Shown: positions 8,081-55,390 of the stretch, piece after piece
Numbering within the stretch: position 1 is the first letter of the stretch
Layout: each line of letters starts with the position of its first letter
NCBI GenBank assembly: GCA_013407085.1
Contig: JACCGJ010020878.1
Span: forward strand, 45,623-109,622
Source: Atriophallophorus winterbourni
Taxonomy: Eukaryota; Platyhelminthes; Trematoda; Plagiorchiida; Microphallidae
DNA: 64,000 nt
Direction of reading: 5' to 3'
Notes under the pieces: generated by a model
What the model was told of the DNA's origin: nothing
Databases searched by the model: none
What the model saw: only the letters and a program-made list of their open reading frames with translations
Made by a program: the position numbers and the translations under genes

Positions 8081-8138
8081 ATGCTTATCCATGTTATTAT
8101 AATCTGTATGACATTAACTTTTCCGGTACGATGTGGAA
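8081..8138 (+). CDS. Exon 1, signal peptide
   Basis: 58 nt from the ATG to a strong donor (GTAAGT), ending in phase 1. It encodes 19 residues with a hydrophobic core and small residues near the end (VRCG), typical of a signal peptide. The start was chosen because it is the only ATG between the TATA motif and the donor and because it is shared with copy B. Copy B keeps the ATG but loses the downstream half and the donor. Confidence 0.75.
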
Positions 8139-11100
8139 GTAAGTTTGATGTAGAATTGTTTTATTGCTTGGTTGTCGTATACCTAAGATAATTGTATAGC
8201 GCGTTTATTTCACTCAACAACGCTGCTTAAATTTATGCTTATAATCCACGACTGGGTAGCTTGTATCCTTGTGAATGAGAGCACAATTAAACCGATCAAA
8301 CTGTGTGAATGCTAAATGCCTATATCGTAAAGTAGACTTGTTTCGGTCGTTTGCATTGAAAGAGATATACAAGTTTATTCATATGAATTATTCTTTGTAT
8401 AATTTTCATTACATGACTCGCAATTTGAATGATATTATTAACGCAAATTATATAATTAATTAAAAATATTTACAGTAATTGAGTTTGATGGAAACCTGTG
8501 TGCAAAAATGCATACAAATATCAACATTTAATACATCATTTGCGTTGGCATATATCTGCCGTGCATTCTTAAACATGAAAAGCTTCACAAATGCTGCAAT
8601 ATACACTCATAACATTCTTTGCTTTTTACAAATTTCACTCTGTATAGACAGGAAATCACGCTGACTGGATGACTATTATTAATCTTATATCAAAACAATT
8701 TTCATTGAATTTCGTTATGGTAATATTGTTTTCGTCATTAATAAACCACTTAATCGAACTAACTGTCATGGATCCGTTAGAAAAACTCAGAATTTCATAA
8801 ATTAGACATTAAGTCTCGTACTCAAGTGATTAAATATAATCCGCTATCTAAGTGAGAAATTTCATCTTCAAGTTTTCAAAATAATAGCGTATGTGAATCA
8901 AGTAGTGCTTGTATGCCACTGCTGGATAAGTTCGGTATGAACAACCTGTTCAATCACATGAGCCTAAACTCGTGTATACAGCGGTTAAATCCATGACCAT
9001 GAACGAAATATCTCATTTGCATGCATTTCCATCACACCGACAGACCGGTTTCGCGCTATTTGCACTCACTCGGTAAGGATAATAGGATTATCATTGGCAT
9101 GCGCATGAAACAGTGGATGCATGGTTAACAAGCTGCGCTTTTATGTCATTATTGTCATAGGTTGGTAGGACCAACCTGTTCAAACACATGAGCACAAACT
9201 CATGTACATTGAGGTCAAACCACATCACTTTTAACAAAATAGATCGTCTACATTCATTTCCATCACACATTAAGTAGGGACAGTAGGATAAGTATCCGCA
9301 TGCACTTTTTCGTTCATGACATGGGTTTATACACTGTCTATATTAGACTGGACTCAGGTGATTGAACAAGTTGGTCTCACCAGGGTTATTCAACGGTTGC
9401 ATGCAAGCTCAAATTGATTCCAATTTTAAAACTGAGTCAAGTGCATGTGTTTCCTGAACCTACTGTCCCTACCTGTTGGGTGCATTCACTAAAAAGCCGG
9501 TCGTGCGGTGTGTGACGGAAATTCATGCAACTGAGTTCTTCGTTAGTATGTAATGTCATTAGAATGCTACTGTAAGTAATATCGCAAATGTTTAATTTGA
9601 ATGATCGTTTTATAATTATTCACTTGACACTTAATATTGGCATAAATTCGCTATATTTTTGGTCTGCTCATAGCTAAATATTGTGTCTGTGTATGCGCAA
9701 ACTGTTCATTTCCCAAATATATGATCAATGTCAGATATCCGTCCAGCCAAATTAATTACTAAAAATCTAAAACCGTGAAACTTAATGTTTGTAACTTTTA
9801 TTCAGGCCATATGTATACTCTCGAAATTTCGACTAACTAGTACCATGCTAGGATTAAGTTTCATTTTATTTATCATTGAATTGAATTGAAGCTTGCTTAT
9901 TTGTCTACTAGCAGCTATATTTCTGCTCGTTGACTTGGAAACGAATATGTTTGCCCACAACGAGCAATGCGGACAAATTACACCAGAAAAGATGAAACAC
10001 ATGGCCGAAGTGGTGAATTTTACAATTTAGATTTATACAATTTCTATATACCATACACATTGTGCATGGTACAATTTAAATAATGGTTCATTTCTGTAAC
10101 TGTTTCCGCCTCAAGTAAATTCAACATATATGAAAGAATAAGTATGATATGGACATGAAGGTTAACAGAAACAATAGGTATACTTTGAATGATGCATTTC
10201 GGAACTACGTTACATTTAGGACGTGTATTTTAATCATGATATAATGTATTCATCTTCTTTGTTGTTAATCACCGAATGCATTTTCTGTTTCATATGTAAT
10301 TCATTTGGGCATATCGGCATTTTAAAGGCATAACACATTAATTTCGATCAATTGTTAACGATGTATGAATGTGAATAATTAATCACATATTTTAGGTTTT
10401 CAACAATTAACCAATGTTTCTCAATTGTTTCTTCCGTTGACGTATTTCTAACAGAATATCAGTCAAGCGAAATGTGATTAGTATAATATAGAATCAATCG
10501 CGACTTGATGAAATCAATTTTACAAAATCTTTTTTTTCAACTCGATTAACGTGTACACTTATTGCATTAATAGAACTGGCCTAGTTTTGGCATTTGAGCA
10601 AACGACAGTCAGTAGAATGTAAATTCAATTAGTAATGGATTATTATCTTATATATGATCTTCCATTAATCCTTGAATGACCTCCACGGAGAAACTGATTC
10701 GTTTGATTCGCTATTTTGATCAATTAAACTATTGACTAGCAAAACATTTTGCTCTTGCTATTTGAAAATTAGGAATTATTAATTTCACCTGAGTGGAAAG
10801 TGAGGTGTTCCACAAAAGCAACTCATGAACAATGGAGACCTGTCCCAGAGTACCTAACTATTAAGAGCGCCAAGTCGCCAATAACTTGCACTGTAAATTA
10901 GAAACTTAAGAACTCTTGAGGAAATGATACAATCAGAGTTCCAAATCAATGTTTGAATATACCATGTTTTTGTGTCAATTGAGTGGATAATAGGTCAATA
11001 TTTATTAGTCTGGAACAAACTTTCAGAAGTCAAAGTGCGTTCAGCCAGGTGTAATGACGCCGACACGATATACGTTTTATACGGGTAAATTATATTTTTG

Positions 11101-14100
11101 TGCTTCAAGAATATGGTGTTTCATTGCATCAATGCACTTCACAGCATTCTAGAATAACATTGACATTTTGCCAATCCCCAAACTGTTCCATCCACATTGT
11201 CAGTATGTTCCATATAAAATGATCGCATTATTTTATACTCTGTTCTGGATGCTTTGTTTTAGATAAAAAAATCTCTTAGCTTACCCAATTGCTCCGTAAC
11301 AAGATATCACATTGTGGGTTATCGCATGGTTCTCGCTGAAATAAAAATAAATCTCGAATTGGGGAAATTGACGCTCTTAGAGGGCTTGATTGAATTACAG
11401 AAGACCACGAATTTCCTTGCTTTCCGAACACAAGGTATGTGACAAAACGCGTGTTGTCCCGTTGCATTCTAACACGTGTGACTATATTACGTTCAGGTCA
11501 AGCAGCACACCCTCGTAGAATGTGTGCTACTTGTTTTTATAAGATTTCCTAAGCACTTAGCCATTGTGAGTATGTATACTTTAAATTGATCAAGGCTATC
11601 GCAAGCGACTTCCTGATTACTAAATGTGGCAAATTTGTTTACCGCTGTTCAAACAAAACAAGGAGATTTTCGCATATTAAACAACTCATTTAATACAACG
11701 AAGCAGGATACTTACATGTGTGTGCATTTTTGAGTGTTCACAATGAGCAGCTGACGAAAATAAATAATAATCCGCAAACAAGCGCGACTATTAAATTAAT
11801 TTGTTTTTTTAGCATAGATCAAAAAACACCAAGCAATTCAATAAATTCTAATTAAGATTAAACACGGAGTAAAATAGTGAACAATTTAAGGTATATTTTT
11901 TACATTAATTGTTGAATTGTGTCTCTGATATTTGACTCCGAGGCAGAATATTTTGAACAATTAATATAACACTGAACATGGTTATCGATTTCAGGGTGGT
12001 TTCTGTAAATTAATTAAAGCTGTTGGATTTTTATTCTTGTCTACTATATTTCGCCATATCTATTTTTGTCTAGATGATCGGAACAAAATGGATTTGAAAA
12101 TGCTTGGCAGTATGGAAACAAGTATGTCCAAGTATATTTGGTGCTCACAACTAAATCCCTTACAGCCACAGTTTTATTAAAATTCTCTATCAAAATTAGT
12201 AAAACGGCATCTAAATAAACGTCCGCCTAGATCCACCGGTTCTACGTCACACAAATGCCTTGTGAGATTATATATAACATTTGTCTTTGTTCATCCACGT
12301 TCTGGCTTGTGAAATCTTTTGCGCAATCCCACTCAAAGCAATAACTACATGGGGTGGGTGGATGATTTTACGTTCATAGTTGTTTTGGTTCTTTGTGTTT
12401 CCATTAAATTTGTCGAGATTCGGATTAAATTCGAAATTGAAATGAACGTTGCTAATCTGGGCTACCAAATTTTGCGCAATCAGTTCGGTTTGTGTCATGA
12501 GCACGTAAATCTCTTTTCGTTCACGTCATGCTGCAAGGACATAGGCTTTGTACTTACTCAGCAACATATTTATTATCCACACGTAAAATATCTTCATGTT
12601 TGCCTTCACAATCAGCTTGCGTTTGTGTCAAATGCATCATTGTGGACTGAATATTCGTCTCTTTGTCCAGAGATGATATTTCCACGTTCGTTAAGATTTG
12701 CGGTTCGATTTACTGGTTGCAGCAGCCAGTTTCTAAATATGATGATTAGAGGCAACACAATCTATTTTCCTAATGCGTTGGCAAAGATTATTCAGATCAT
12801 TATTTCAATTTTCGCATAACGCTGACAAACTGTCAATTAACGGCGGAAGCAGATCTTGATATTAAGCAATAATTTAATGGCTGCATGGTCGGCAAACGGC
12901 ATGTCACAAATTAGCATATCCAGTAAGTTCATTTTTATTCTCCGAGTTTTACCGCATGATCAGGACGACATTCAGTGATCTGTTGTTTAACTTATTTATT
13001 GCCTGATGAGATCACCATCTTGTTTGACGCACAGAAATCCCCTGCAGAGCATCAATACCTATTTATGTTTATATTTATGTTAATATATTCTTTAATGTAC
13101 TTTCAATTAAATAAATACCATTCATTTAATTATTTCGCTCAAACAGATCTTAAATGTTAATTGGTTTCTGATGATTAATTGCAATTGATTTTTCGGAATA
13201 ACTTATTCAACTCTGTAGTCGAAGTGAAATACTTGTATCATATCAATACTTTATAAACGTTTGACAATATTTGCACACAATATAGTGCTTTGCGCGCATT
13301 AAAATTGCAGAATTCTCTACGCATTTGCAAATCAAAGTTGCGCTGGATGACTTTCAGAAAGTTGCTCAATTGCACGCCGCAAATGAGAAAATTTTCAAAG
13401 TATGTCAACGGAAATAGTTTTATCACATTTTATATACTAGGCTAAACATTCTACAAATTAAAATAAGCTATTGATCTGACGCTTCGATGTACAGTTTAAT
13501 TGCGTTTTTCGACCAGTGAGCAACAATACCGTTAGGAGTGTTGAGATCCGCGAGTATTTGTCCATGAACAATTTTACGCTCAAGTAACGCAATTTCTGGA
13601 AAGCTGAATATTTCGGACTCGTCATAATTTTGTTTGATCCGCTTAAAGCAACGTATCTGTGTTATACGTGCACCGGTTAGGAAAATGCTTCATTCTACAA
13701 CAAACGCAATCTTTTCAGAAGCATGATTGCAGGATCGGCAAAATTTTACTTAACACTGTGTATGATAAATGATAAATGATATTGTTAAAGGTTGCACATC
13801 TGTTTAGCGGGATGCTTTCACATATTTTCCTCGATTATTGAACAGACAAATAGGTCGATAAAAATAGCCGCACGGTGGAACGAAGTCGTGGCGATATTGG
13901 GGCGATATCACGGAGCGCGCCTCGAGACAATAAAATATCAATTGAAATCATGTTCGATTTCATTATTTTCTTTCAATCGTGTTTTGCATTATTATTGCAA
14001 ACAACCCTCTGTCATGGCGCGATATTTGAAATTTTCGAATGAATATAAACCCTCAATACGCGGTATTGATTCAAATGATCCGCATGAAATATTGCTCGAA

Positions 14101-17100
14101 GTACCATAAATTTTAATTAGCTCTGTTTCTGGTTTTTGGCTAATGTAACGTTTGACTATCACAGTATTGTTCAGACAGAATCCAGAATCAAGTCGGAAGT
14201 TTCGTATAAGTGCAAGAACAATATACAAGCATTCTGTTTAATGCTTCTCCATTTAATATAAATGAATATGATAATGATGAAACTGGTTGATCAGGTAAAT
14301 GAAATGGCAAATGACATCTTACCAGATATATTCTATGCTATGATGAAATTAGATCAGCAATTGATGATGCATCTCTAAGGCAAAGGCTATATAAGATTAA
14401 ATCATTTGATTTTGATCGACATCAACTTAGTGGAAACGTGTTGTAATATAAGCGAACGATTGATTTCCAGAAACTGACCTTAACGTTAATGAGATATTTT
14501 GAAAACGCAACAATGCGTTGTTAATAAACGAATAACTTCCAGGTTCCGATTTTATGTACCTGAATAACTTGAATAATAGTCTACCATCTATATTTTGATG
14601 AATCCTAGCAACAAATTGTTTCAATATTTCAACCTGCTGGGAATAATATACAAGTTGACGCATCTCGTGAAACGAACATCGACAGAAAATTAATTGACCG
14701 GATAGCTAATGTTCGCATGACCCTAAAATATGATTACAATTTGCGGAGATTTCCGGAATATTGGCCGCTCAATGCTTTGCCGATTATCGTTGGTAATACA
14801 AGCACTAACGTCCAAATCGAATATGGATTGTATCCAGATGGTGGTAAGCAAATTGTATAACGTGTCACATTTAACGACAATTCGTAGCTATATAGTCATT
14901 GTAAAAGTCTTGGCCCCGTAGAAACACACAGTTAATCACAACTTTGCTTACAATTCAGATGACGTTACCACTAGCAAATGTTAGCACTACTGGTTACTGT
15001 GAAATCGGATATCTCTGACATGAAACTAAACAGCATAAGTTGATGTACAGTGTGGGAATTTAACGAAATAACCATCAAACAATTTTGCTGACGTTCCGCT
15101 TAATTGCTCGATGTGAGTCGATACATCATCATAGAACATTAACATTTATAGGACAGTTCGTTGTTTGACAAGTCGCACTTGTCACGTCTCATAATAAAAT
15201 AGCATCAAAACCCTATGCTATTTTCTTAAATCAACTTCATTCCCAAAATTTTAATTCTCGAAATGATCTTCCTACATGTTCATTATCAACGCAGAAAAAG
15301 CTACAAGCTATTATGTTTGACTACATATTGTGCATTCGATATAAAGGGTCTATCACCATGCATGTAGCAATCCTATGTAAAATGTCTGCATCAGCGTTTC
15401 CTGTAATCCAAACATAATACCGACAAAAAGCGTAATGAATGTTGAGGAGAATTGTTTATTATTGAAAAAAATATTCAGTCAAACCTTGCATCGGTAATCG
15501 TAACATAATATACGATACAAAATCTGAGTTTATATGAAATCCGATTGGATTTACAATTACATGACATTAGGACGTAGAGTTTTATTTATTTATATTTTGT
15601 TGTTGAATGGCACTTAATTTGTAAGTGTGACATATTTCGTGGAAACAATTGGATGTGCGTGTTACAAGTCCTCGTTATCTTAGCAGACTTTCATATACGG
15701 TGAGAGCTGAAAGTGTCGACTTATTTGAGAATTCATTGTTTTTATATCATATAAAATTAGGTTTGATTAGAAATCAGGTGTGTTATTTGGGGTTTTGTTG
15801 AATTTGTATGCGTAAAATATTTCGTTCCAAACATAGTTCTGTGCTCATTTTCAATGATTCTAAAGTTTATCATATTCATTCAAACTGCAATTTCAATCAC
15901 CTACGCCAAATCGTGAACACATACTTCTCTGTACAATGTATCTTGCATTACAAATCTTAATGTATTTAAAATAATTTTTCTTCATTCAATCAAATATCTA
16001 TTTAGCATCAACTCCGAATGTGACAGGTGTGTCAGAGTAACGCCAATCGATTATAATCTAGTGTATTCTAAATGAATTTTGTCCACACATATCTTGAAAA
16101 GTTGGGCTGTAAATCGTTGCAGTTGTGTTGTATTAATTATTAGTCTTTGGTGATCTCTGTTAACGGTGGCACTACAAAAATGACATTAAACATTGTATTG
16201 TATTTTGCAGGTAGTTATTTCGAAGCTCTTGCACAGTTCGGCATACGGGATTATCCCACAGTGATACCACATCTATGGGTGAATAAACACAAACAATTGT
16301 ATGGATAATAGCTGAGACGACCCAAACGCCTTCTGAGTAAGCGAGGTCATAAAACGTCTGTAGTGTCTTGTTGGGAATACTGGAACCAATCACTAGTAAA
16401 ACGACCAACAAATTCCGTATATAAATGACTGACACATTTTTTGCGACAATAGCAACAATTTCATTATATTCTTTTGCTGTCTAGCACTGAATTCCTATTG
16501 TTTGCGATCATGGTTTATCAACGGTACAATCAAGGTCTTAGTGCATTTAAAAATATACAAATTACAGTTTCAATAATCCTGCATTGCTGTGATTTTACAA
16601 TGGATATGCGTTTCGGAACGCAGCCTCATAACATCAATGAATAAAATTATGCTTCCCGCAGTCTTCATTACCGATATTGCTTCCTTTACAGTAATTCAAT
16701 TCATTGTGAAGGTTACGGAAAACGAGGTCACCGGAGATTTTTGCACACGCGTGAGAATATTTCACCGTTTCGACTTTAATAATGTTTTGTAATACAATAC
16801 ACCGCAGTTTTCTGTTATAAGAACTTCTTATTGTCATGTTGTACAAGCTAATCCATCCTTATTCTCCAGACAAAGTGATGAATGTTCACCCAGCCGAGTG
16901 GGCTGCAAGCGCGGATATCATATTTACATGATAATGAAAATGCATACACCAGATGTTTGCCACATTGAAAAATGTTTGATGGTTTTCTTAGCATCTATTA
17001 TCGATTTGTTGATCACGAAAAAAATCAAATGTGATCTATATATCGTGAATCTCCACAAAATTGCGAAAGGTTTAGTTTGATCATTGATTACGTTGCACTC

Positions 17101-20100
17101 GAAACTTGTTCGATTGCGATGGAACAATTTCGCGGTATTTAAAGTGATGGGTGCTTTTTCCAAAAAGCTTAATATGTGAGAGCAAGGTATCAAATTTTAA
17201 CATTAAAGTTTCCTGGAATGGTTTTTAACATAATATGAACTGTTGTGCTGATTGTATAGATACAAGCATTCGAAAAAGCCCACGGCTTATATGTAAGCTT
17301 CGCTTTCGGAAATCTTACACAAGCATTGGAAATTGATTTCTTGAACAAAATCCTATGTAGATCTTATTGAACATCGTGTGGTAAAGTGGTGGATACTACA
17401 AATTTATTGATTCTGATCATGCTTGGTAAATTCGAATAACTCGTGAGGCTTTTAATTGAGAAAATGAAAAATAGTCATTCTTTTCCAAATTGGGAATAGA
17501 TACATTTTCTTTATAGTTTGCCAAATGGTATTACCTTTAAACAATTATTTTGTACCTGTAAAACATAAAGGTAAACAAAAGTGAGAAAACTACCAAACAA
17601 AACGTAGGCAAAATTAATAAATAATGACATGATTTCAAATATTGAAGACATTCTGTTGCGAGAAGAAATGAAATCTTAAAACGCTGAATAAATTAACACG
17701 ATTTAAATTTCGTTTTCAGCTGAGAAATATCTTCCTACATATAATCAACTACAACATCGAAAGCTGCGTCATAACAAATGATACGAAACAAAATCCCAGT
17801 CGATTTCAGCGAATTGAACTGGAAGTTAATTTGACCAAACTATCATTGGTAACAAAATTGCTGGTGGCAATAAATGGACACACAATGGGATATTATTTCA
17901 CGTGGAATAAATTGCCACAGTTTCCTAATTATGGTAAGAATTCAAAGAAAATTGTTCAAATACGTACACGTGTTTATTAAATGCTACCATTTGGCACGCG
18001 TCTCAAGTATCTTCTGAAAACCAAGTCCAGCTGCTGGCAAGCAGGAGTGGCTCCCCGAGCCCAGCTGAACTGCTTCTACCAACAGGAAAAGGGGCGAGAG
18101 CGAGTGACTGGCGCCTGAGAACCAGTTCGCCTCGGACAGATAGAGCTCGTTAGCCTGGGAGGACACTTAATCTAATCGAAGTAAAACTTTGATTTTAAAC
18201 CTCCGCTGCCTTGCGGGATACCCGATCACGGGAAAGGCTTCGGGAGAAAAAACTGAGGAATAATCTGAAACAGAGTCTGGCAGACGGTTATTTGGTGCAC
18301 ACCTCCTCGTTCTGGCAACTTATTGCTGCCTCGCAGTTCGCACTTAGTTGTGCAAACGCTAGAAAAGCAGACTCGCGCAAAGGCCTACTGATGCTGCGGA
18401 CGCCGATTTGTACATAAATTCCCGAAAATCTTCATTGAAACCGACTCATCTTCCAGGTAGAAATGGTCGCACAGAATTACTTAAAACGAATTTGTTTCAC
18501 AACTTTAGGATTTGTATTTCTTTGCTTGACATAAAATTCGCGATTGAAGTAGAATTAAGGTCCACATAACAATCACCAATTTTTACGTCAAAGAATCAGT
18601 ATTATTTTGTAACAGGCTCACATGACCGTACGGTGTTAGAAATAATTTATAAAGTTGCTCAACACATTTCTTTCAGATGTTTACTATGAGAACTGCGAAA
18701 AAGGACTTGTTGTTGGTCAGTTTATTCATCTTCATTTTTTGCGATTATTTAAATTAACTGATTCAAACTTTCTGAACATATTATTGTATATTTTACATGG
18801 CATCGTTCGATATATGAATGAGAATATAGAAGGATGTGTAAAACCGAAAAACATGACATATGCGCGTGCTTCACGGGAACTCGTCACGTAACTCTAAACT
18901 ACGACAAAATGAGACTTTTCTCGAAAAAGTCGTTATAAATTGACCTCTTACCATTTGATATAATTATCAAATTGCACAAATTTAGTTAGCAATGCTGCCA
19001 ATAAATTTGTCAACATGTATTTAGCAAAAGTTGTTTCGTGTGTATTCTATACACGATTTTATGTGAATTTGTTTCCGATCAAATCAATATCACAACTCTG
19101 ACTCAAATTAGAAGCGCACAATTTCCTTTCAAATATTGTGAAAGCCTAAACCATAGTAATTTAAACTGGTGATAGCAAATACAAACTGATTTGTTTCGAG
19201 ATGTTGAGGTGCAAATTTCTACATGCCAAGTGATACAGTGATTTAAGTATACACGATGCTCACCAAAAGTAATTACTAAAATATAGAAATTAACGTCAAT
19301 TCTTCTAGTGCAGTAGAGCAGGACATGGTACAATGGTTCATTATTCGTCGTCACTTGATTAAGTTATCTAGCAAACACCTCGTTTAATCGAGAGAATACT
19401 GTGATAAAATTGTGTAACAATTTGAATTCGCATTGATAGAACAAAATATAAAATTGTTTATGAAAAACGTATTTTCAATGAAAGTTTGCTATCAAATAAA
19501 TCATTGACACATTGTTGTTGGATCATTTCTACCCTACTCAGCGGTGTTGATTTTGGATACGTCATTTAAAATGAGCGAGAATCAACTCGGATTGGAGAAT
19601 GAACAATGCCAACCTGTAAGCCGTTATATTTATGTGTGCGCATTATAATCTAATAAATTTTTAAAGACCAAAGCAATATCCATGTAACACATCGATCATA
19701 CTCAATAGGAAAATGAAAAAAAATTTATAATCTGAAACTGTCACTTTTCTGTTAAGCATGACCTATGCGACCCTCACATTGCTCAACACGACGTGAGAGT
19801 TAATTTATCATCTCACACGCTGATTTCATAAAATAATTACGATTGAACAATCAAGGTTCACATTTAGGCTGCTGTTGTATAAGGTTGGTACCGCTAACTT
19901 TATCAATTACATATGTAGATGGTAATAAACCCATGACCCTGAATTAAATTATGTATTTGACGAGTTGGGAAATATTCATATGAATGCGGATTGTTCAAGA
20001 TTTCAGAATCAACAGGATTTCAGAGAGATGTAATGACTAATCATTCAAAAATCCGAATTTTAATGGACGTACATGAGGCTTGTTGTGCCTGAATTATTTT

Positions 20101-20885
20101 GGTTTTTACTATCTATGTATGTTTTTCGTTAGCAAATGTATGAAGTCTCCCCCGCGTTTACCAAATGATTTGTATGTTAAACGGAGCGGTTACTTGCAAA
20201 TAATCTTAAACTGACATTATTTTCAAATTGGCGAGTATTATCTATTGTCTCATGTAATTCTGGAAGCCGTAAAAAAACTCGGCGATGGCTGATGGAACAT
20301 TTTCTAATAATTGCCTAATGTGAACATCAGTTCAGTGTCAAAACCATTGTGTTCACCAAACGCGCTCGTTTAAATGTATCACTCACTTGGATGACTTTGA
20401 TTTCTGCCTAAATTTACTTTTTTGTAACCATACACGACTCAGTATAAATCTAGTTATTTGTTTGCAATTAAGAGACAGTGCATGCCGGTAGCTATTTTTT
20501 CTTGTCAGATGTTATTTGTGATAACTTTTTAATTCATCGGTAACTCCACATAACGGAAATTACAAATGATGGTTTCTTACCGATTCATATTTTGTACTAA
20601 ATATTCTATGACATTTTGATCTAATGTTTACATCAACACCTAAAATTGACACAATATGCCATTTTTCTAAATGTTTCACAACCATAGATCGTCGTGGTGC
20701 TTGGATATTATCAAATCACAGCCTCATGCAAAACAAAGACGACATCCGAACTAGAACTCAGACTTTTTACACTCGATGTCTACTGGTACACTCCGGCATC
20801 GCTTATGCATTTGATGGTCGCACAAAACTTCACAAATCTCGTCCGAAATGTGCGCTGGAACGTGTTACCAAAGGTTTTCAATTAA
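8081..20885 (+). CDS. Novel 13-exon secreted modular protein gene (429 aa)
   Basis: Exons: 8081-8138, 9915-10012, 11263-11434, 12074-12121, 13311-13399, 14609-14792, 14838-14843, 16006-16026, 16662-16750, 17720-17933, 18677-18715, 19542-19615, 20688-20885. Every junction has AG/GT, phases match throughout, and the sum is 1290 nt with no internal stop. Twelve exons have a counterpart in copy B; exon 11 does not. Exon 1 encodes a signal peptide (MLIHVIIICMTLTF). The rest forms four related modules, most carrying a Cys at the end of one exon and another in the next (exons 9/10 and 12/13). A W-N-x-L-P motif recurs in exons 10 and 13, with a variant in exon 6. N-glycosylation sequons (NCS, NVT, NDT, NLT, NFT) fit a secreted protein. 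The family is unknown to me. A divergent fibronectin-III-like fold is possible (alternating strands, conserved Trp, last module cut short) but weakly supported. The small symmetric exons recall schistosome micro-exon genes. Confidence 0.8.
8907..9312 (-). repeat. Two degenerate hammerhead-repeat units in intron 1
   Basis: Two tandem units (8907 and 9137) of the same roughly 237-bp family as the array at 31453-32405. On the minus strand the first keeps a hammerhead-like outline, but its CUGAUGA core is mutated (CCGAGUGA). The second has lost the core by deletion. Copy B has the equivalent pair at 39776-40207, so they predate the duplication. Confidence 0.75.
9313..9540 (+). repeat. Opposite-facing hammerhead-repeat unit in intron 1
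   Basis: The same family in the + orientation, meeting the previous units head to head at about 9312. The ribozyme core (CCTGTTGG in place of CCTGATGA) is degenerate here. The copy B counterpart at 40208-40435 keeps its core. Confidence 0.7.
9915..12121 (+). CDS. Module 1 (exons 2-4)
   Basis: Exon 2 (9915-10012, phase 1 to 0) encodes a segment containing DLETNMFAHNEQCGQ. Exon 3 (11263-11434, phase 0 to 1) contains SLPNCSVTRYHIVGYRM and a run of alternating hydrophobic residues. It ends at a near-perfect donor (ACACAAG then GTATGT). Exon 4 (12074-12121, 48 nt, phase 1 to 1) encodes a linker containing KMLGS. All three are length-conserved and open in copy B (98, 172 and 48 nt). A tandem NAGNAG acceptor at exon 2 could add one codon. 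Antisense ORFs over exons 2 and 3 are shadows. Confidence 0.8.
12245..13160. other. Copy A-specific 0.9 kb insertion in intron 4
   Basis: Copy B passes directly from the sequence matching about 12240 to that matching about 13165, so this DNA was gained in A or lost from B. It holds a 166-codon + strand ORF (12319-12819) whose start is hydrophobic (FTFIVVLVLCVSIKFVEI). It also holds overlapping minus-strand frames, including one at 12268-12504. I recognise neither. It may be an unclassified mobile element or an intron-nested gene; no terminal repeats are evident. Confidence 0.4.
13311..16026 (+). CDS. Module 2 (exons 5-8) with two microexons
   Basis: Exon 5 (13311-13399, 89 nt, phase 1 to 0) and exon 6 (14609-14792, 184 nt, phase 0 to 1) form the body. 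Exon 6 ends FPEYWPLNALPIIV, a variant of the W-N-x-L-P motif of exons 10 and 13. A 45-nt intron containing a CACTAAC branch-like motif leads to a 6-nt microexon (14838-14843). A 21-nt microexon (16006-16026) encoding STPNVT follows. In copy B exon 5 has a stop and a 2-nt deletion, the exon 6 donor GT is GA, and both microexons persist. This module has no cysteine, unlike modules 3 and 4. Confidence 0.75.
14838..14843 (+). CDS. 6-nt microexon (exon 7)
   Basis: TATCCAG, then ATGGTG, then GTAAGC: a clean acceptor and donor bracket six bases, phase 1 to 1. Copy B has TATTCAG, ATGGCG, GTAAGC at 47956-47961. Inclusion adds Asp-Gly. Skipping it leaves the frame unchanged, so it could be alternatively used. 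Microexons of this size are known in schistosome micro-exon genes. Confidence 0.6.
16006..16026 (+). CDS. 21-nt microexon (exon 8)
   Basis: TTTAG, then 21 bases, then GTGTGT; phase 1 to 1, encoding STPNVT plus split codons. Copy B has the same length (49174-49194), encoding SAPSVT. NVT is a potential N-glycosylation site. Confidence 0.65.
16662..18715 (+). CDS. Module 3 (exons 9-11)
   Basis: Exon 9 (16662-16750, 89 nt, phase 1 to 0) contains KVTENEVTGDFCTR. Exon 10 (17720-17933, 214 nt, phase 0 to 1) contains NIESCVITNDTKQNPSRF and ends YYFTWNKLPQFPNY. Exon 11 (18677-18715, 39 nt, phase 1 to 1) encodes VYYENCEKGLVV. Its donor (TTG then GTCAGT) is the weakest in the gene and the frame stays open to 18891, so its 3' limit is less certain. 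Copy B keeps exon 10 intact, exon 9 has lost its acceptor and gained a stop, and exon 11 is gone. Confidence 0.75.
17985..18420 (+). mobile_element. 5' fragment of the 21-25 kb non-LTR family, in intron 10
   Basis: A GC-richer island that matches the 5' leader of the element at 21189-25140: the GTCCAGCTG block, AGATAGAGCTCG versus AGATGGAGCTCG, and AAACCTCCGCTGC versus AAACCTCCACTGC. Only the leader is present, which is unusual because this class normally truncates at the 5' end. It is absent from copy B. An incidental minus ORF (17984-18166) and plus ORF (18211-18417) lie in it. Confidence 0.7.
19542..20885 (+). CDS. Module 4 and C-terminus (exons 12-13)
   Basis: Exon 12 (19542-19615, 74 nt, phase 1 to 0) ends LENEQCQP. 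Exon 13 (20688-20885) contains YYQITASCKTKTTSELEL and ends VRWNVLPKVFN then TAA. The WNVLPKVFN tail aligns with WNKLPQFPN of exon 10, so the protein stops at the point where earlier modules splice onward. The TAA is shared by copies B and C, so this end is ancestral. Exon 12 is intact in copy B; exon 13 there has a stop nine codons in. Confidence 0.8.
19870..19945 (-). repeat. Hammerhead-repeat remnant in intron 12
   Basis: A short piece of the 237-bp repeat family (ATAAGGTTGGTACCGC, then TAAACCCATGACC). The ribozyme part is missing. Copy B has the equivalent remnant at about 55290-55390. Confidence 0.55.
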
Positions 20886-30439: not shown

Positions 30440-31440
30440 CAGCACTTATTTTAAACCATTCACGCCTGAGTTTGAATCTTGTTAATCGTTTTCAATAAAC
30501 AGAGAGTGAAGGACAGTAGCTGTTCTTACTTGTCAGTCGTTACCTGTGATAAATTTTCAATTAATCCAAACTCCGCATAACCGAAATTACAAACAAGGGT
30601 TTCTCGCCGGTTCGCATTTTATATGAAATCTTCTATGGTATAACAATTGAATGTTTCCATCAACACCACAAAGTCACATAATACGCTATTTTTTAAAATG
30701 TTTCACAACGAAAAATGATCGTGGTGCTCGGAAAGTACCAAATTATAGCCTAATGCGAAGCAAAGACATTTTAAGTAATTGAACTAAGAATTTTCACATT
30801 TCTACTGTTAAACTCCGGCTACGCTGATGCATTTGTTGGTCACACGAAACTGCACAAGTCTCGTCCGAAATGTGCACTGAAACGTGCTGCCAAACGTTTT
30901 CAATTAAAGAATCCATTCGCCATGCAAACCATCCCAATCCATTAAGCTACTAAACGTTCGAATGCGCAATATTATTCCACAAAACGTTTGCAACGAAATA
31001 CACGCATTTTGTCTTGCTGTTTGAAACTGTCGTAAATCCTTACGGTATTGTGCCATTATTATTTTTTCGCTCATAGCACAAAACATATTTTCACATTTGT
31101 AGTGAATCTTCATGTAATTTGATATTTAAAAAATCTCGTTTGTTCTTTTATAACCATGAACGCGTTGTCTGAAAATGGAGTGACTCGCTAACTTGAATCC
31201 AGTTGTATTCAGCCATTTTAAATTTGCGAATATACTAAAGCCTTGAGTGCCATAGTTTTCTTTCGTAGAAAGATTCAAATGAAGACAGTCGTTCCCAATC
31301 ATGTTTTAAAGAAGTCAAGCCTTTCGTATATGTTTTATCAGTGGAAAGCAAGATTTAATTCATGCTGATAGATCGCGATTTGAGATTCCACAAAAAATTC
31401 GTAATATTTGTACACCTTGCCATGTTGGAAAAATGAATAA
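30440..31440 (+). repeat. Segmental duplication, partial copy C
   Basis: Aligns with the 3' end of copies A (20440-21176 then 25141-25385) and B (55860-56835). It has the uninterrupted target site of the 21-25 kb element (near 31210) and ends where the hammerhead-repeat array begins. Confidence 0.85.
30715..30907 (+). pseudogene. Exon 13 relic of the modular gene, copy C
   Basis: Aligns with exon 13 of copies A and B, including the shared ACTCCGGCTACGCTGATGCA of copy B and the terminal TTCAATTAA. It carries several in-frame stops and small deletions. No other exons of the gene are seen nearby, so this is a partial, dead duplicate. Confidence 0.8.
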
Positions 31441-31589
31441 TATACAACGAGTGCTTGTATGCCACTGTCACTGTTGGATAAGGCTGGTACTACCAACCTA
31501 TTTAATCATATGTGTCCAAACACATGTTTGATGGGGCGTATTCCGTAAAAATGAACCAAAAAGAACATTTGCTTACTTTTTCGTCACAC

Positions 31590-38208: not shown

Positions 38209-38801
38209 TATACAGAATTCGCATTACTGGATGTTTTGTTCTAGATTAGTGCATATCACATTGTTTTCATCAGTCTTTCACACGCGAAGATTTGATCACT
38301 CAATAAATGAGCATTCGTGCACAAGATATACTCATCAAATTTTATCCAGCATGAAACAATACGATTCCAAATGGTTGTATACATTTTAAAATAAAGCTTT
38401 CTAATCAGTGAATCAGAGTCTTTGGTGGCGAAGACAATTTAACCAAAATGAACGTGAAACGTAAATTGATTTTATAAAAAATGAATCGACAAAAATTTTA
38501 AAAATTGGTCATAGAAAACGGATGTACGAACCATAATATGTTTTAAGTCGTCATAAACTTACTGAAACAGTTTCGTGTGCTTCCTTTTTCAGTCGTCTAC
38601 AAATTTCTAATGTGAGTGATCAAGTTAATACAATGTGCAGAAAAGATGATAACTCTCAAACTGCAAGTCAATCGATTTACAGCGTGAAACTTGAGTTTTC
38701 GAGGTCGAAGTAATCATAAAAGTTACAGCCATATTGAACAAAATTCGTGGAGCTCGTGTGCTTTTTGTATGCGCTGTGTGTGGCCGTGACTAGTTTTAAT
38801 A

Positions 38802-38808
38802 ATATAAA
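38802..38808 (+). promoter_or_regulatory. Putative TATA box of the copy B pseudogene
   Basis: ATATAAA, 67 bp before the ATG at 38869, mirroring copy A. Confidence 0.5.
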
Positions 38809-38909
38809 TGGTCTTCGCTCATCGATATCGTCATATCGTGGCGCAAAGCAACGCAAGTCATAATTAAAATGCTTATCGTGGCTAATATAAGCTGTATGAC
38901 ATTAACTTC

Positions 38910-39600
38910 GTTGCTGTTGACATTGCGATTTAAAAATTCTTAGCGGTGAAAGATAGAACATAACGGACTTTATAATCATTTGCTCAATTGCGTGTGTTCC
39001 TATCTTCAAATATTTTTCGAGGGTTATTGGTGGGTTCGACTATCAAATATTGTTCTTATAAAGAACCACGACGCCTAATTACATAATAAACTTCTAAAAG
39101 TCACAGTTGGACTAAGATGGTATAAAATATTGAGTAATTGCTTATGAGCACAACTCAGTAGCAACTAGTATCAATATTCACGGCCCACCGATACATAAGT
39201 AGCCAGAATCAGAAACAAATACATACGGCAGAAACCAATTTGTGTTATGTCTCTTAGTAGTTGATCTGATTCACTTGGACTTTGTGTTACTCGAATAAGA
39301 GGACAGATACGAGCACTTCTGCGAAATGTTAATGGGTGAAATAGCATTCCCGTGAGTTGTTTTGTTGAGAAGATTCAGAAGTGGTAAACATATTCCTGTT
39401 TACTTAAGGGGAAGAAAACAAATCTGATTTAAAATAAAATTACTGGGATAGGATTTGCTGGTGACATACATGAAACTCTTTGCGTCTCAGATGGTTAGGT
39501 TTTGTTGGAATAAATCCGTCACAGGAAACATTAGAATATTTATCCGGAAATCACGGCTGCCGGGTGACAATTTCAAAGTTATATCACAAAATGTTTCTTT
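38910..39600. other. Copy B-specific sequence replacing start of intron 1
   Basis: Copy A's 8115-8700 has no match here; alignment resumes at about 39610 (TTAATCGAACTAAC). It contains weak protein-like stretches near 39440-39600 but no recognised motif. Its arrival removed the signal-peptide end and exon 1 donor. Confidence 0.5.
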
Positions 39601-39775
39601 GCATTTCGTTATAGTTTGGACACTATTATACCAATTAATCGAACTAACGTGCATCGATCAGTTACAATATCTCTAAATTTTTATCTAAGTCTGATACTCA
39701 ATGGATTGAATATAATCAACGTTCTAATTCAGAAACTTAATGTTCGAGTTCTAAAAATACGGAAAGTCAATGAAT

Positions 39776-40207
39776 TGTGCATGTATGTAACTGCTGGATC
39801 AATACTGTAGGAACAACTTCTAATCGTCCGAGCCCAAACATATAACCATTAACTAAAAAATCTCATTCACATGCATTTTCATTAGACACACCACCAACGA
39901 CCAGATTTGCGCTGGTTTCACTCATCAGGTTAAGACAATGGTATCAGAATCGACATGCGCTTGAATTAGTGGATGATTGGCTGACAAGTTGCGCGTGTAT
40001 GCTACTGATGTTTAAAGATGCAACGACCGAACCTGTTTAATCACATAAGAACAAATTCATGTATAAATGGGTTAAACCCATGACCAAGAACGAAAAAACT
40101 CATTTGCATGCATTTCCATCACACACGCCCTAGGATCTGATTTGTGCTGTTTGTACTTATTAGGTAGCGCCATAATTTAAGAATCCGCATACGCTTTTTC
40201 GTTCATG
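39776..40207 (-). repeat. Two hammerhead-repeat units, copy B intron 1
   Basis: Counterparts of 8907-9312. On the minus strand, unit 1 keeps CUGAUGAG but the GAAA box is AAAU. Unit 2 has CUAAUAA. Both look inactive. Confidence 0.7.
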
Positions 40208-40435
40208 GTCATAGGTTTAAGAACTGTCTACATGAAAGTGGGCCAATGTGATTGAACAGGTTGATCGTACCAGGTTTATCCAACAGTGGTATACAAGCGC
40301 AAATTGATATCAATCCATATCCATCCAACTATTCCAAGCGCATGTGTTTCCTGACCCTACTGTCATTACCTGATGAGTACAACCAGCACGAAACTGGTCG
40401 TGTGGTGTGTTATGAAATGAATGCAACTGAGCTTT
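40208..40435 (+). repeat. Opposite-facing hammerhead-repeat unit, copy B intron 1
   Basis: Counterpart of 9313-9540, head to head with the preceding units. It contains the hammerhead core listed separately. Confidence 0.7.
40359..40410 (+). ncRNA. Type I hammerhead ribozyme in copy B intron 1
   Basis: Plus strand: CTGATGA at 40370-40376, stem II GTAC-AACCA-GCAC (one A-C mismatch), GAAA at 40390-40393, CTG, then GTC ending at 40399 as the cleavage site, followed by GTGTGG. All invariant core bases are present. It lies in the sense strand of the pseudogene intron, so cleavage would have cut the pre-mRNA. Confidence 0.6.
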
Positions 40436-43431
40436 TTCGATAGTAGGGAATGTCATTCAAACGGTACTGTAAGTAATATCAAAAATGTGTAATTTAAATA
40501 ATCGTTTGATGAATATTAACTTGACACTTATGATAAACATAAATTCTCTAAATTTTTGGTCTGCTCTCTTCTTATAATTGTGTCTCTGTTTGCGCAACGT
40601 TTTTATATCCCCAACATATGATAAATCTCAGATATCATTCCAGGCATAGTTGGTTTCTAAAAATCTAAATTAGGGATACTTAATGGTTGTAAAATTCATT
40701 CAAACCGTGTGTACTGTCAATATTTCGACAAAACAAGTGATGCGCTCAGTTTAAGTGGTATATTATTTGTCGATAACGTGAATTGAAACATGATCATCTG
40801 CCTACCAACAGCAATATTTCCGCTACTTGACTTGGAAACGAATATGTTTGCCTACCACCAGCAATGCGAACAAATTACACCAAAAAAGCTAAAACATATG
40901 GCCGAAGTGGTTAGTTTGACAAATTAGCTTTATACGTTTTCGTTCATTCATCCGCATTTTGCATGGGACAATTTATTCTTTGTTTAAATGAGGTTTCATG
41001 TACCAAACCGTTTCTCTTCAAGTTAGATCAACATGTATGAGAGAATAAGTATGATATGGACGTATACGTTTAATGGATTACTAGGTATTGTTGAAAGATG
41101 CATTTTGAGACTACGTTACATTTTGGACTTGTATTTTAATCATAATTAAATTTATTCGACAACGTTAGTGTTATTTAAAAAATGCATTTTTTTGTTTCAA
41201 AAGGAATCCTTTCGGCACATTTGCATTTCAATGTCATAACTCACAAATTCAGGTCAATTGGTAACGATGTTTGAATGCAAATAATTAAGCCCCTGATAGA
41301 AGGGTTTAACAATTAACCAATGTTTCCCCATCGCGACTCGATGAAATCAAGTTTTCAAAACATTTAGATCAACGTGATTAACGTTTACACTTATTTCATT
41401 AATATTACAGGCCTAGTTTTGGCATTTCAGCAAAGGACAGTCAGTAGAATGTAAATTCAATTAGTAATTCTTCAATACCTCATCTATGAACTTACATGAA
41501 TATTTTAATGACCCCTCCGTAGAAACTAATTCGTTTGATTCGCTTGTTTGATCACTGAAATCATTGACAAGCAAGATGTTCGATCTTGGTTTTTGAAAAG
41601 TGAGAAACAATAATTTAGCCTGAGTGGAAAGTTAGGAGTTGCACAATAGCAACTCATGAACGATGGACACATGTTTCAACTATTGAGAGCGCTAAGTCTA
41701 CAACGTGCAGTTTAAATTCGAAACTTGAGATATTTTATGGAAATGATATAATCAGAGTTACGAAACAATTTTCCAATATGCTATGTTTTCCTTATTAATT
41801 GAGCGGGTAATAGGTCAATGTTGATTTGTCTTGAACGAGCGTTCAAAAGTGAAAGTGCGTTCAGCCAGCTATAATTACACCAACACGATATACGAGGGGT
41901 TAATTATATTTTTATGCTTTAAAAATATGGTCTTAGTTTGATTCAATGGACTTTACACTATGCTAGAATAAAAATGACATTTTACCAATCTAGAATCTTT
42001 TCCATTTTACTTTGACATTATGCATTGCACAAAAAAGAATCTCCTTCATATATACTATTTTGGATGCTGAATTTTAGATAAGACGATCTCTTCGCTTACC
42101 CGATTGCACCATAACAAGATATCACATTTTGGGTTATCACATGGTTCTCGCTGAAATAAGAATAAATCTCGAATTGGGGAAATTGACGCTTTTAGAGGGC
42201 TTGATTGAATTACAGAAGACCATGAATTTCCTTGCTTTCCGAACACAAGGTATGTGACAAAACGCGTGTTGTCCCGTTGCATTCGAACACGCATGATTAT
42301 ATTACGTTCAGATCAGCCCACACACCCTCTTGTAATGTGCGTTACATGTTTTACTTAGATTTCCTCAGCACTCAGCGATTGCGAGTTTGTATACTAGATA
42401 TTGTTCAAAGATGTCGCAATGACTTCCCGGTAACTAAATGTGGCAAATTTTCCACCGCTGCTTAAACAAAACTGAGTGTTTCGCCTATAAAGCAACAATT
42501 TTATTGCAATGCCGCAGAGGCTCATTTTGTTATTATAGGCCTTACATGTGTGGGCATCATTGAGAGTTAACAATGAGTAGCTGACAAAAAAAATAATTTT
42601 CCACAAATAAGCGCGATTTCAAACATAAATTGATTATTCAGTATATTTCAACAAACACCGAATAAATCGTGAAATTCGAATTCAGATTAAAAACGGAGTA
42701 AAATAATGAACAATTTAAGGTATATTTATTATATTAATTGTTGAATTGCGTTTGTTGGTAATTGATTCCGAGGCAGACTATTCTGAACATGTTTAACGAT
42801 TACAGGGTGGCATCTGCAAATTGAATCAAGCTGTTACGTTTTCTTTAAAGTGTAACGAAAATATACTTTCATTTATCAATACCTGACAACTTTATTTCCC
42901 CATTTATATTTCTGTCTAGAGGATCGGAACGTTCTGAATATGAAAATGCTTGGCAGCTTGCAAACAAGTAACACTGAATATATTTTGGTGCTCATATCTC
43001 CATCCCTCACAGACACTGTTTTATTAGAATTGTGCATCAAAATTAGTTAAACTGCGTCTAATTAATCATCTGCCTAGATCGACCGTAGCTCAAAAAATCT
43101 TGATTGTAGATTGGTTGCTGAGGCTTAATTGCAAGTGATATTTCCGAATCACTTATGCGACTCTGTACTCAATGTGAAATACGTGTATCATCTCAATGTT
43201 TTATAAACTTTTGACAATATTCGCACACTATATAGTGCTTTTCGCGCATTGAAATGGCAGAATAAACTACACACTTGCAAATAAAAGTTGTTTTGGATGA
43301 CTCAGAAATTGAATCAATTGCACGACGCAAATGAGGAACTTTTCAAAGTATATGTCAACCGAAATGTTTTTATCGCAAGTTCATATACCTTATGAAACAT
43401 TCCAGAAATACACATCAGCTCTTTAGCAGAC

Positions 43432-46400
43432 AACTCCGCAAACTGCCGGTCCCAAGCCCGGGTGAAAAAGGAGGAGGGTTGGGCGTGGGGCTAGCAACCC
43501 TACCCCGTAAAAGACAACGCTGCTACAGAAACTTCAACAACAAAAACTGCACAAAAGCTGTCTGGACGGGAGGACTCCTCTTCAGTGGGGCTCATGACGC
43601 GTGCTGGTGAAAGCCTTCGGGAAGACAACTCGCCGATAAGGCTTCTCACGGCCAAAACAAAGACCAGGATGGGGACCTGGAACATCAGAACCCTATATGA
43701 GAGCGGGGAATTATCACAGGTAGCCAAAGAGATGGAAAGTTACAACATCAAAGTTCTAGGCCTATGTGAGACTCGATGGAATGGGAGCGGTCAAAACAGA
43801 CTATCTTCAGGGGAAACCATCATCTATTTCGGACATGAAGATATGAATCATATCCACACTCAAAGAGTGGCAATATTGTTAGCGCCAGAGGCTACGAGAG
43901 CGCTAATGGCATGGGAACCTGTCTCACCGAGACTTATGGCAGCCAGGTTCAACTCCAAGGGAAGGAGGATCACCATCATCCAGTGTGATGCGCCAACAAA
44001 CACAGCCCAAGAAGAGGAGAAGGAAGATTTCTACAAATCTTTACAGGTTCTTCTAGACCGGACTCCGCGCAGAGACATGAAGATCGTCATGGGCGACTCG
44101 AACGCTAAGGTCGGTGATGACAACACAGGCAGGGAACTCATCATAGGCAGACACGGCGTGGGTACCTGCAACGAGAACGGAGAGCTTTTCACAGACTTTT
44201 GTTCGTTCAATGACTTAGTAATAGATGGCACCATTTAGCCTCACAAAAGGATCCACAAGACTACTTGGACTTCACCCGATGGGAAGACGGAAAATCAGAT
44301 AGATCACTTCACCATTGACAGAAAGTGGAGGCGTAGTGTGCTGGACGTCAGAGTGAGGCGCGACGCCGATGCAGCCTCCAACCATCACCTGCTGGTTGCA
44401 ACAATGCTGACCAAGCTGAAGTCCTTCAACGATTTGTCGGGAAGAGCGTACCACAAGTTCAACACACAGTAATTGATGGACAAAAAGAAATCAGAAGAGT
44501 TCAACTGTGAGGTCAGGAATAGGTTCGAGGCGCTGTCGGAGTTGGCCGACGAAACAATAGAAAATCACTGGGCAGGAAAACGAAAGACCTGGCAGGATGC
44601 GTGCACTAAAGTTCTGGGAAAGAAAGAGAGGGGACAGAAGGAATGGCTGACGAAGGGTACCTGGGAGAAGATTAAGAAGAGGAGGGATTTGAAGATGGAA
44701 ATTAGCAGATGCTGTGACCTGCAACAGAAGGCAGACCTCAAAGCACAATATTGGGAGACAAACCGGGAAGTGAAGAAGGGTGCTAGACAGGACAAAAGGA
44801 AATTTATACACAACCTAACAGATGAGGCAGAGCTAGCGGCAAAGCTGAATAACATGAAGAGGGTATATGAAATCACCCGAGCCTTGTCAGGAAAGAGTTC
44901 CAAACCGAGCAATCCAGTCAAGGACAAAAATGGAAGAACCATGACAAGCGAGGAGGGGCAAAGGAAAAGATGGGTGGAACATTTTGAAGAAATTCCAAAC
45001 AGACCACCTCCGCAAACATCTTCTGATATATCACCAGCAAAGGAATCCCTATGCATTAACATCAACCCTCCAACAATTGCAGAAATCATCAATGCCATCA
45101 AGTCCCTGAAGAATGGTAAGGCACCAGACCCTGACGCATCCCCTAAGAAGCTCTAAAGGCAGACGCGACAGCGGCAGGGGAGATGTTACACCCCTTTCTG
45201 GTGAAGTTATGGGAACAGGAGAGAGTTCCGGCTGACTGGAAGCTCGGGCATTTGGTAAAGCTCCCCAAGAAAGGCGACCTTTCCCAATGCGGCAACTGGC
45301 GAGGAATCATGTTGCTGTCCATCCCCAGCAAAGTACTGACCAAAATCATCTTGGAGAGATTGAAAGAGGCGTTAGACAAGAAACTTAGAACAGAACAGGC
45401 GGGGTTTAGGCAAGATAGGTCATGGATAGATCATTTCGCCACTCTGCGTATTATCATCGAGCAATCCATCGAATGGCAGTCTCCTTTGTACGCGATCTTC
45501 GTCGACTTCAAAAAGCGTTTGACAGCGTCGACAGGAAGATAATATGGAAGCTAATGCAACACTACGGAATCCCGCAAAAGCTGACAAACATCATCCAACA
45601 GCTCTATGAGGACTCATCATGCCAGATCATCCACAACGGAAAGCTGACAGACCCCTTTCCAGTGAAGACTGGAGTGAGGCAAGGTTACATGCTCTCGCCG
45701 ATAATTTTCTTGATCGTCATAGACTGGATTATGAGAAGAAGTACAGAGGGCAGCAACACCGGCATCCAGTGGACCCCCACCAAACATCTCGAAGACCTTA
45801 ATTTTGCGGATGACATCGGCCTCCTGTCTCACAAGCAACAGCATGCACAGTCTAATCTAACGCGCCTAGCAGAAGAGGCAGAGAAGACGGGCCTAAAAAT
45901 CAACATAAAGAAAACCGAGGTGATGCGATTGAACAACCAACTACAGCAGCCACTGCATCTACAGGGGAAAGACGTGGTGGAGACTGACCGCTTTGTTTAC
46001 CTTGGAAGCGTGGTCAACATTGATGGTTGCACAGAAGACGACGTCAAGAGCCGAATCAGCAAAGCAAGGGTAGCGTTCAACACCCTGCGCCCCATCTGGA
46101 AATCTGAGGCCTTGTCCCAGCGCAGCAAAGTCCGCATCTTTAACACCAACGTAAAAGCAGTCCTCCTCTACGGGTTCGAAACATGGCGGGTTACCCACAA
46201 CATCACCAACAAGATACAAACATTTGTCAACAAGTGCTTGCGCCACATTCTTAACATCAGGTGGCCTGAGAAGATTTCAAACACAGACCTATGGCGTAGA
46301 ACCAACCAGAACCCTGTTGATCAGGACATCAAGAAAAGAAAATGGGGTGGATAGGTCACACACTCCGCAAACCAGCTGATAACGTCACTAGGCAAGCACG

Positions 46401-46600
46401 AGACTGGAATACACAAGGTAAAAGGAAAGTGGGACGACCCAAGCAGTCGTGGAGAAGATCAGTCGTAAGTGAAGCGAAGGATGCCGGAATGACATGGACT
46501 CAGCTGAGGATAGCAGCCCAGGACAGAGTTCGCTAGCGTGGCGTTCTTGCAGCCCTATGCTCCAACAGGAGTTCACAGGAATAAGTCAAGTAAGTCAAGT
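43432..46600 (+). mobile_element. RTE-type non-LTR retrotransposon in copy B intron 5
   Basis: Bounded by an imperfect 11-bp target duplication (CTTTAGCAGAC at 43421-43431, TTTCAGCAGAC at 46601-46611). It ends in a short tandem repeat (AAGTCAAGT twice), as RTE elements do. AP endonuclease from about 43660 (MGTWNIRTLYESG, CETRW). Its catalytic SDH reads SNH near 44380. RT from about 45100 (LKNGKAPDPD, then FADDIGL near 45803-45823, intact). Stops at 44236 and 44470, with frameshifts near 45150, 45515 and 46345. Strongly resembles schistosome SR2-like RTEs. Copy A has the empty site near 13475. Confidence 0.92.

Positions 46601-51623: not shown

Positions 51624-51627
<4 letters not shown>

Positions 51628-51691
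<64 letters not shown>
51628..51691. repeat. Compound TA/TG microsatellite
   Basis: About 32 bp of TA followed by about 30 bp of TG, after exon 10 of copy B and absent from copy A. Confidence 0.95.
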
Positions 51692-51692
<1 letters not shown>

Positions 51693-51769
51693 ACGTATAC
51701 ATAAAATCAAAATGAATGGGACGTTGATAGTTTATTAATAGTTGGGTTAGAATTCGGATTAGCTCTCGT

Positions 51770-55289: not shown

Positions 55290-55390
55290 TTAAGCCACTG
55301 TAGTAAAAAGTTGGTACGGCTGACCTATGCAACTACTTGTACCCAAACACACGTAGATGGTGACAAACCCATGAACATGTATTAAATTAT
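55290..55390 (-). repeat. Hammerhead-repeat remnant, copy B intron 12
   Basis: Contains AAGCCACTGTAG, TTGGTACGGCTGACC and ACACGTAGATGG, parts of the 237-bp unit. No ribozyme core. Confidence 0.55.

Follow-up and report, generated by a model that had tools for sequence, protein, structure and literature searches.

Much of what parasitic flatworms present to hosts and mates is believed to consist of proteins without recognisable database relatives. Among the described systems closest to the locus considered here, the micro-exon genes (MEGs) of flatworms are encoded for the most part by symmetric exons no longer than about 36 nt, and the tandem-SEA mucins of the MUC16 type exhibit tandem extracellular modules of a size roughly as found here. 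In SEA domains, a G/S autocleavage motif sits between strands 2 and 3 and is not present in every member. Another system is an orphan family of Schistosoma japonicum, for which the published account reports a signal sequence, duplication, two conserved cysteines and no sequence homologs, and where the SEA domain was recognised only by fold modelling (PMC3886910).

The locus considered here extends from 8081 to 20885 of the window, i.e., the whole stretch of 64,000 nucleotides that was analysed (C12769:45623-109622, reaching the contig end, from a genome assembly of 537 Mb). It is almost certainly a real gene: it has a defined multi-exon structure, is constrained at the protein level and belongs to a family spread over the genome. 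Like flatworm MEGs, it encodes a secreted-looking product and possesses small symmetric 1-to-1 exons (48, 21, and 39 nt), but unlike them it is encoded mostly by exons of 58-235 nt, with 1/12 exons under 36 nt and 3/12 being 1-to-1; as such, the 12 exons do not have the composition of a MEG. As in MUC16-type mucins, the modules are in tandem, roughly 90-115 aa long and presumably extracellular, whereas profile similarity is not above controls and the placement of the cysteines looks different. The nearest published parallel may be the S. japonicum orphan family modelled as SEA, which as published shares with the present one a flatworm origin, a signal sequence, duplication, two conserved cysteines and the lack of a homolog by sequence (PMC3886910). 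As described there, the S. japonicum proteins have one domain of ~120 aa, some members with a C-terminal transmembrane region (PMC3886910), whereas here four modules are present, none of the six highest hydropathy windows lies beyond the N-terminus and SEA is not supported. The likeness is one of description; no member of the S. japonicum family surfaced in the protein-database searches.

Genomic context

Four related copies were found on the contig, three of which (copies 1, 2, and 3) appear as related stretches within the window:

Copy 1: related stretch at about 7.4-21.1 kb, gene at 8081-20885, plus strand; the gene under study, intact.
Copy 0: contig positions 20428-1367, minus strand (inverted); upstream on the same contig, outside the window, intact.
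Copy 2: 38217..56582, plus strand; paralogous gene, broken.
Copy 3: 30444..31436, plus strand; fragment, last exon only.

The contig also carries mobile and repeated elements. In an intron of copy 2, a LINE-type element (window 43495-46354) encodes an endonuclease, a reverse transcriptase and DUF6451 in an interrupted frame; among its best 120 matches listed, the top named one is from the gastropod Littorina saxatilis (76%), schistosomatids stand at 48-59% and the top match overall, a nameless one, at 85%, and a transfer of this LINE between snail and worm is possible. At window 37068-38212, a transposon fragment with a DNA-binding domain of the CENP-B type has a second copy, 92-95% identical, at C12769:26680-27679. 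A tandem repeat of ~236 bp (window 31440-32400, 8890-9270, and 39836-40437) is related to repeats within intron 1 of copies 1 and 2. A short dispersed element at 17971-18363, perhaps a SINE, recurs at window 21255-21472 and at 18.8-19.2 and 35.5-35.8 kb of the contig.

The mitochondrial code read from COX1 of the same assembly supports a flatworm: TGA occurs in frame and, under table 9, AAA stands at Asn-like, AGA/AGG at Ser-like and ATA at Ile-like positions, as judged from the positions known to be conserved in COX1, this code being common to flatworms and echinoderms. Besides the COX1 on C6618, further matches lie on C4859, C4746, C11485, C8922, C10138, C4773, and C15234, most of them interrupted by TAA/TAG stops, and probably represent mitochondrial DNA copied into the nucleus; under table 9, the best match on C4859 likewise reads open.

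Exon structure of the gene

The initial annotation had proposed a hidden gene made of 13 segments with AG/GT borders, joined in phase from 8081 to 20885. This chain could be rebuilt and amounts to 1290 nt, i.e., 430 codons (429 aa and the stop). The multi-exon gene itself stood up to the analyses of conservation and dN/dS reported below; its description as complete with 13 exons and 429 aa was wrong in detail, and three corrections lead to a best model of 12 exons, 1305 nt, and 434 aa, listed hereafter with identities to copy 0 unless otherwise stated:

Exon 1: 8081..8138, plus strand, 58 nt, phase 0 to 1; start ATG and signal-peptide-like hydrophobic stretch; counterpart of 58 nt with GT donor in copy 0, identity only 44/58.
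Exon 2 (module 1, first half): 9915..10012, plus strand, 98 nt, phase 1 to 0; identity 90/98; length of 98 nt and AG/GT borders also seen in 3 further loci.
Exon 3 (module 1, second half): 11263..11434, plus strand, 172 nt, phase 0 to 1; identity 149/172, and 160/172 with copy 2; same phases in distant relatives.
Exon 4 (linker): 12074..12121, plus strand, 48 nt, phase 1 to 1; identity 41/48; length of 48 nt and AG/GT borders also seen in 3 further loci.
Exon 5 (module 2, first half): 13311..13399, plus strand, 89 nt, phase 1 to 0; identity 71/89, singly not above background (P 0.12); 89 nt with AG/GT in 6/7 other aligned loci, the seventh being copy 2 with 87 nt.
Exon 6 (module 2, second half): 14609..14843, plus strand, 235 nt, phase 0 to 1; initially ended at 14792; identity 212/235.
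Exon 7 (micro-exon linker): 16006..16026, plus strand, 21 nt, phase 1 to 1; identity 19/21 (P 0.059); length of 21 nt and AG/GT borders shared by copies 0 and 2 and by L014.
Exon 8 (module 3, first half): 16692..16750, plus strand, 59 nt, phase 1 to 0; identity 50/59.
Exon 9 (initially exon 10; module 3, second half): 17720..17933, plus strand, 214 nt, phase 0 to 1; identity 173/214.
Exon 10 (linker): 18677..18715, plus strand, 39 nt, phase 1 to 1; identity 35/39; length of 39 nt and AG/GT borders also seen in 3 further loci.
Exon 11 (module 4, first half): 19542..19615, plus strand, 74 nt, phase 1 to 0; identity 70/74; length of 74 nt and AG/GT borders also seen in 5 further loci.
Exon 12 (module 4, second half): 20688..20885, plus strand, 198 nt, ending with the stop TAA; identity 169/198.

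Where the small exons could be aligned end to end outside copy 1, AG/GT borders were found in 24/24 alignments and the length was kept in 23/24, this set including copies 0 and 2 as well as some near-identical pairs. In copy 0, all 12 exons have the lengths, phases, frame, and GT/AG sites of copy 1 and all are open; the aligner places a gap at the extreme end of the last exon (199 vs 198 nt), where the frame reaches the same stop. Copies 0 and 1 code the same residue at 331/435 codons (stop included). The terminal TAA, which follows ...FN and was initially credited to three copies, is present in copies 0, 1, 2, and 3.

The corrections concern (i) the start of exon 2, (ii) the end of exon 6, and (iii) a segment formerly counted as exon 9. 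For exon 2, the acceptor AG chosen initially is absent in copies 0 and 2, where an AG lies 3 nt downstream. For exon 6, the donor at 14843 scores better than that at 14792, 43/51 positions of the extension are identical in copy 0, and the motif IE[YF]..YPNG is retained in 3/5 distant relatives, the other two differing there; against the longer exon, copy 2 carries stops and a 1-nt insertion in this extension, but copy 2 is broken elsewhere too. As for the third, the 33-nt segment at 17260-17292 is not supported as an exon: it counts 34 nt by eye in copies 0 and 2, matches copy 0 at 19/32 and copy 2 at 20/26 positions, with a single stop when copy 2 is read in the aligned frame, and has no alignment across it in the other 29/30 loci tried; as both its ends are in phase 0, leaving it out preserves the frame. 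Other candidates were likewise discarded, namely a 68-nt segment at 16211-16278 (1-to-0), which misfits the phase of the next exon and shows background conservation, a 0-to-0 segment from 20024, the acceptor of which is not retained in copy 2, an upstream acceptor for exon 8 at 16662, lost in copy 0, and versions of exons 2 and 6 with shortened or displaced borders.

Conservation and constraint

Between copies 1 and 0, the exons of the corrected model are identical at 1123/1305 positions (86.1%) and the introns at 6005/8139 (73.8%); random sets of the same size averaged 73.4% and 0/1000 reached the exon value. With dN at 0.129 and dS at 0.255, dN/dS is 0.51 (bootstrap 0.37-0.73), and dS, at ~0.25, is near the intron difference of 26%, as expected if constraint bears mainly on the protein. 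Taken singly, 9/12 exons stand out at P < 0.05, the exceptions being exons 1, 5, and 7. The comparison of copies 1 and 2 gives 1066/1246 for exons and 6409/8410 (76.2%) for introns, 0/1000 random sets reaching the exon identity, and a dN/dS of 0.52 (bootstrap 0.38-0.76); the differences between these two copies show no excess at third codon positions, a question settled by dN/dS. For the 13 segments of the initial annotation, identity is 1052/1224 (85.9%) versus a mean of 75.7% in random same-size intron sets, of which 0/2000 attain it, and again 0/2000 when exon 3 is left aside. Exon 3 is unusually alike in copies 1 and 2, and the conservation test was therefore repeated without it and, chiefly, with copy 0. 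Within window 11304-11469, these two copies differ at 5/166 sites, compared with 58/255 and 47/217 in the flanks (about 22%); this stretch and its match in copy 2 are likely a gene-conversion tract crossing the exon end.

That copy 1 would be a young pseudogene, by chance still open and with a conservation predating its loss of function, appears highly improbable. Copies 2 and 3 are indeed broken and dN/dS is only moderate, but copies 0 and 1, about 25% apart at synonymous sites, have both stayed intact, whereas copy 2, equally diverged, has accumulated several lesions, i.e., stops in exons 8 and 13 of the initial numbering and a 2-nt deletion in exon 5, with exon 1 aligned only partly and the 39-nt linker (18677-18715, initially exon 11) not aligned. 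Copy 3 shows several stops and has lost its AG acceptor. In addition, 45/50 exon sequences of the family (loci L008-L057, chosen as matches and including copies 0, 1, and 2 and duplicates) are without stop, the exceptions being L021, L028, L029, L032, and L057.

Protein architecture

The six highest hydropathy windows (19 residues) are all N-terminal, the best starting at residues 5-7, and on hydropathy only, the protein is probably secreted with a signal peptide. Four modules of about 90-110 aa follow (residues 20-109, 126-233, 241-331, and 345-434), each composed of a 1-to-0 exon and a 0-to-1 exon, the final one ending in the stop; this pattern repeats four times, with 1-to-1 linkers of 48, 21, and 39 nt in between, in agreement with the secreted-looking modular protein first suggested. 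Cysteines common to copies 0 and 1 are found at 9 (in the leader), 38, 62, 258, 276, 338, 367, and 383, and four N-glycosylation sequons are shared at 61, 238, 280, and 416. In modules 1, 3, and 4, a Cys pair spans the phase-0 junction and probably forms a disulphide, while module 2 has none.

The proposal that the protein grew by module duplication fits the fourfold exon-phase pattern and the Cys pair of three modules, but sequence similarity between modules is weak. Module 3 versus module 4 gives E 0.0037 (reversed control 0.071), module 1 versus module 4 gives E 0.02 over only 7 columns (reversed control 0.61), and the remaining four pairs reach E 0.12 at best; when the second halves, numbered as initially, were aligned in greater depth, exons 6 and 10 reach E 0.014 (controls 0.19) and exons 10 and 13 only 0.066 (controls 0.18-0.23). 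Duplication is thus argued mainly from the exon pattern.

As initially stated, the protein could be matched to no named family, with no convincing relative in Pfam, the PDB or the protein database. In the latter (5.8 billion proteins), 6890 and 7994 candidates were scored with none at E<=10, such searches scoring only candidates that share short words within a length range; flatworms are represented there, the LINE of the window having retrieved proteins of Schistosoma, Trichobilharzia, and Heterobilharzia. The best Pfam match, Glyoxalase_2 (E 0.01, 16.2 bits versus a cut-off of 30.1), is absent in copy 0 and not convincing, as are the weaker sub-threshold matches to P2_N, BetaGal_gal-bd, Peptidase_U32_C, and HOOK_N_NuMA. 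By sequence, the best PDB matches (E 0.23, 1, and 0.11) were judged to be chance, and neither Rfam and tRNA searches nor the literature at abstract level gave a convincing result. The FN3 or other beta-sandwich fold proposed for checking gained no support from the sequence searches in Pfam and PDB.

It is rather unlikely, though worth weighing, that the modules are highly diverged SEA (ferredoxin-like) domains, which would make the product a tandem-SEA secreted or tegument protein. By eye and uncomputed, modules 1-3 agree with a strand-helix-strand-strand-helix-strand succession, recognised SEA domains share very little sequence with one another (MUC1 vs 1ivz, E 0.023), and S. japonicum offers the published precedent of an orphan family with a modelled SEA fold (PMC3886910). 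Against it, SEA (PF01390) gave no match at E<=10 in the Pfam searches, in which HMMER filters remove most matches above about 0.1, and hhalign against a SEA reference of only five sequences, one of them partial, gave E 0.18-0.77 with reversed controls at 0.15-0.61, i.e., nothing above controls. No G/S cleavage motif was noticed in the translations by eye, and AlphaFold on two single exons gave unusable models (pLDDT 42 and 37).

Gene family and selection

A search of the genome with the initial 429-aa model returned 98 matches at E<=10, including about 80 at E<=0.01 on 20 contigs, these counts being lower bounds, with several contigs that look duplicated (e.g., C12303/C14799 and C7322/C6823). 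Matches above E 0.01 were not used for counts; sequences were still taken from some of them, namely two short stretches (L056, L068) and three stretches of the C10721/exon 3 type (L054, L055, L065-L067), of which L065-L067 were admitted to the omega test on exon 3 on account of a fitting splice phase and FLAF motif. Close genes occur on C12303, C8300, C7322 (two) and others, and distant ones, some 24-40% identical, on C12591, C6738, C4704, C6573, C6493, C4279 and others. In the 214-nt exon, 7 residues are invariant among 13 sequences, including Cys16 and Thr61-Trp62, and a search with its distant version yielded 15 matches at E<=0.01, of which 7 belong to the distant and 8 to the close group, 15/15 without stop. 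With a signal-peptide-like start, many paralogs, pseudogenes and no homolog found elsewhere, the locus has the features of an orphan secreted multigene family, which is large and fast-changing and, on these sequence grounds, apparently lineage-restricted. Most likely, this is an orphan flatworm family of secreted, presumably host- or mate-facing proteins under birth-and-death evolution.

Maximum-likelihood omega was estimated on short exons, with p values from chi-square at one degree of freedom, uncorrected for three tests. In the distant subfamily (n=7), the 214-nt exon gives omega 1.90, with lnL -930.71 vs -933.96 at omega 1 (2 delta-lnL 6.5, p about 0.01). For exon-3 relatives (n=7), omega is 1.83 (lnL -683.07 vs -684.70, p about 0.07), three codons having been dropped from two sequences. 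The close subfamily is represented by 6 sequences, two of them nearly identical, and its omega for the 214-nt exon is 0.78 (-681.38 vs -681.85, p about 0.3), not different from 1. Pairwise dN/dS in the distant subfamily (6 sequences) points the same way as its omega, at 1.23, but with a bootstrap of 0.82-1.96 is not clearly above 1. These values hint at diversifying selection in the distant subfamily, as seen on two short exons in which gene conversion may have acted.

An ordinary extracellular or tegument structural protein, engaged in no arms race and with a turnover reflecting relaxed constraint after duplication, is a doubtful but sizeable alternative. It would agree with the close subfamily, where omega is either under 1 or indistinguishable from it, and with a bootstrap including 1 in the distant one; the distant maximum-likelihood omega of 1.9, the exon open in all 7 sequences, and the conserved Cys and Trp speak against it.

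Biological significance

The preferred explanation, i.e., a functional secreted family gene acting at a contested surface, stands as a whole at about even chances. The stretch 8081-20885 is almost certainly a functional 12-exon flatworm gene. Its 434-aa product, probably secreted, has a putative signal peptide ahead of four modules (about 90-110 aa each) that short linkers connect, a Cys pair being present in three of these modules. The family has spread through duplication, with tandem and inverted copies on the contig and more on other contigs, and sheds copies as pseudogenes. Its products may act outside the cell at the host-facing skin or gut, or at mating or egg contact, and binding to a changing partner, host or mate, may drive the amino-acid turnover hinted at in the distant subfamily; this role of outward-facing binding protein with a changing partner is put forward tentatively, at somewhat less than even chances. 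It is on the unlikely side, yet conceivable, that the modules form a family unknown outside this flatworm lineage, in which a three-exon cassette (1-to-0, 0-to-1, 1-to-1 linker) is repeated and has expanded into many secreted genes under diversifying selection at the host interface.

The family has been delimited from raw sequence, down to where its exons begin and end, which copies are intact and which broken, and which relatives are distant, and an initial hint of diversifying selection has come with it. It provides a concrete list of genes for checks of expression stage, secretion and structure, and illustrates that a large multi-exon family can escape both ORF scans and homology searches.
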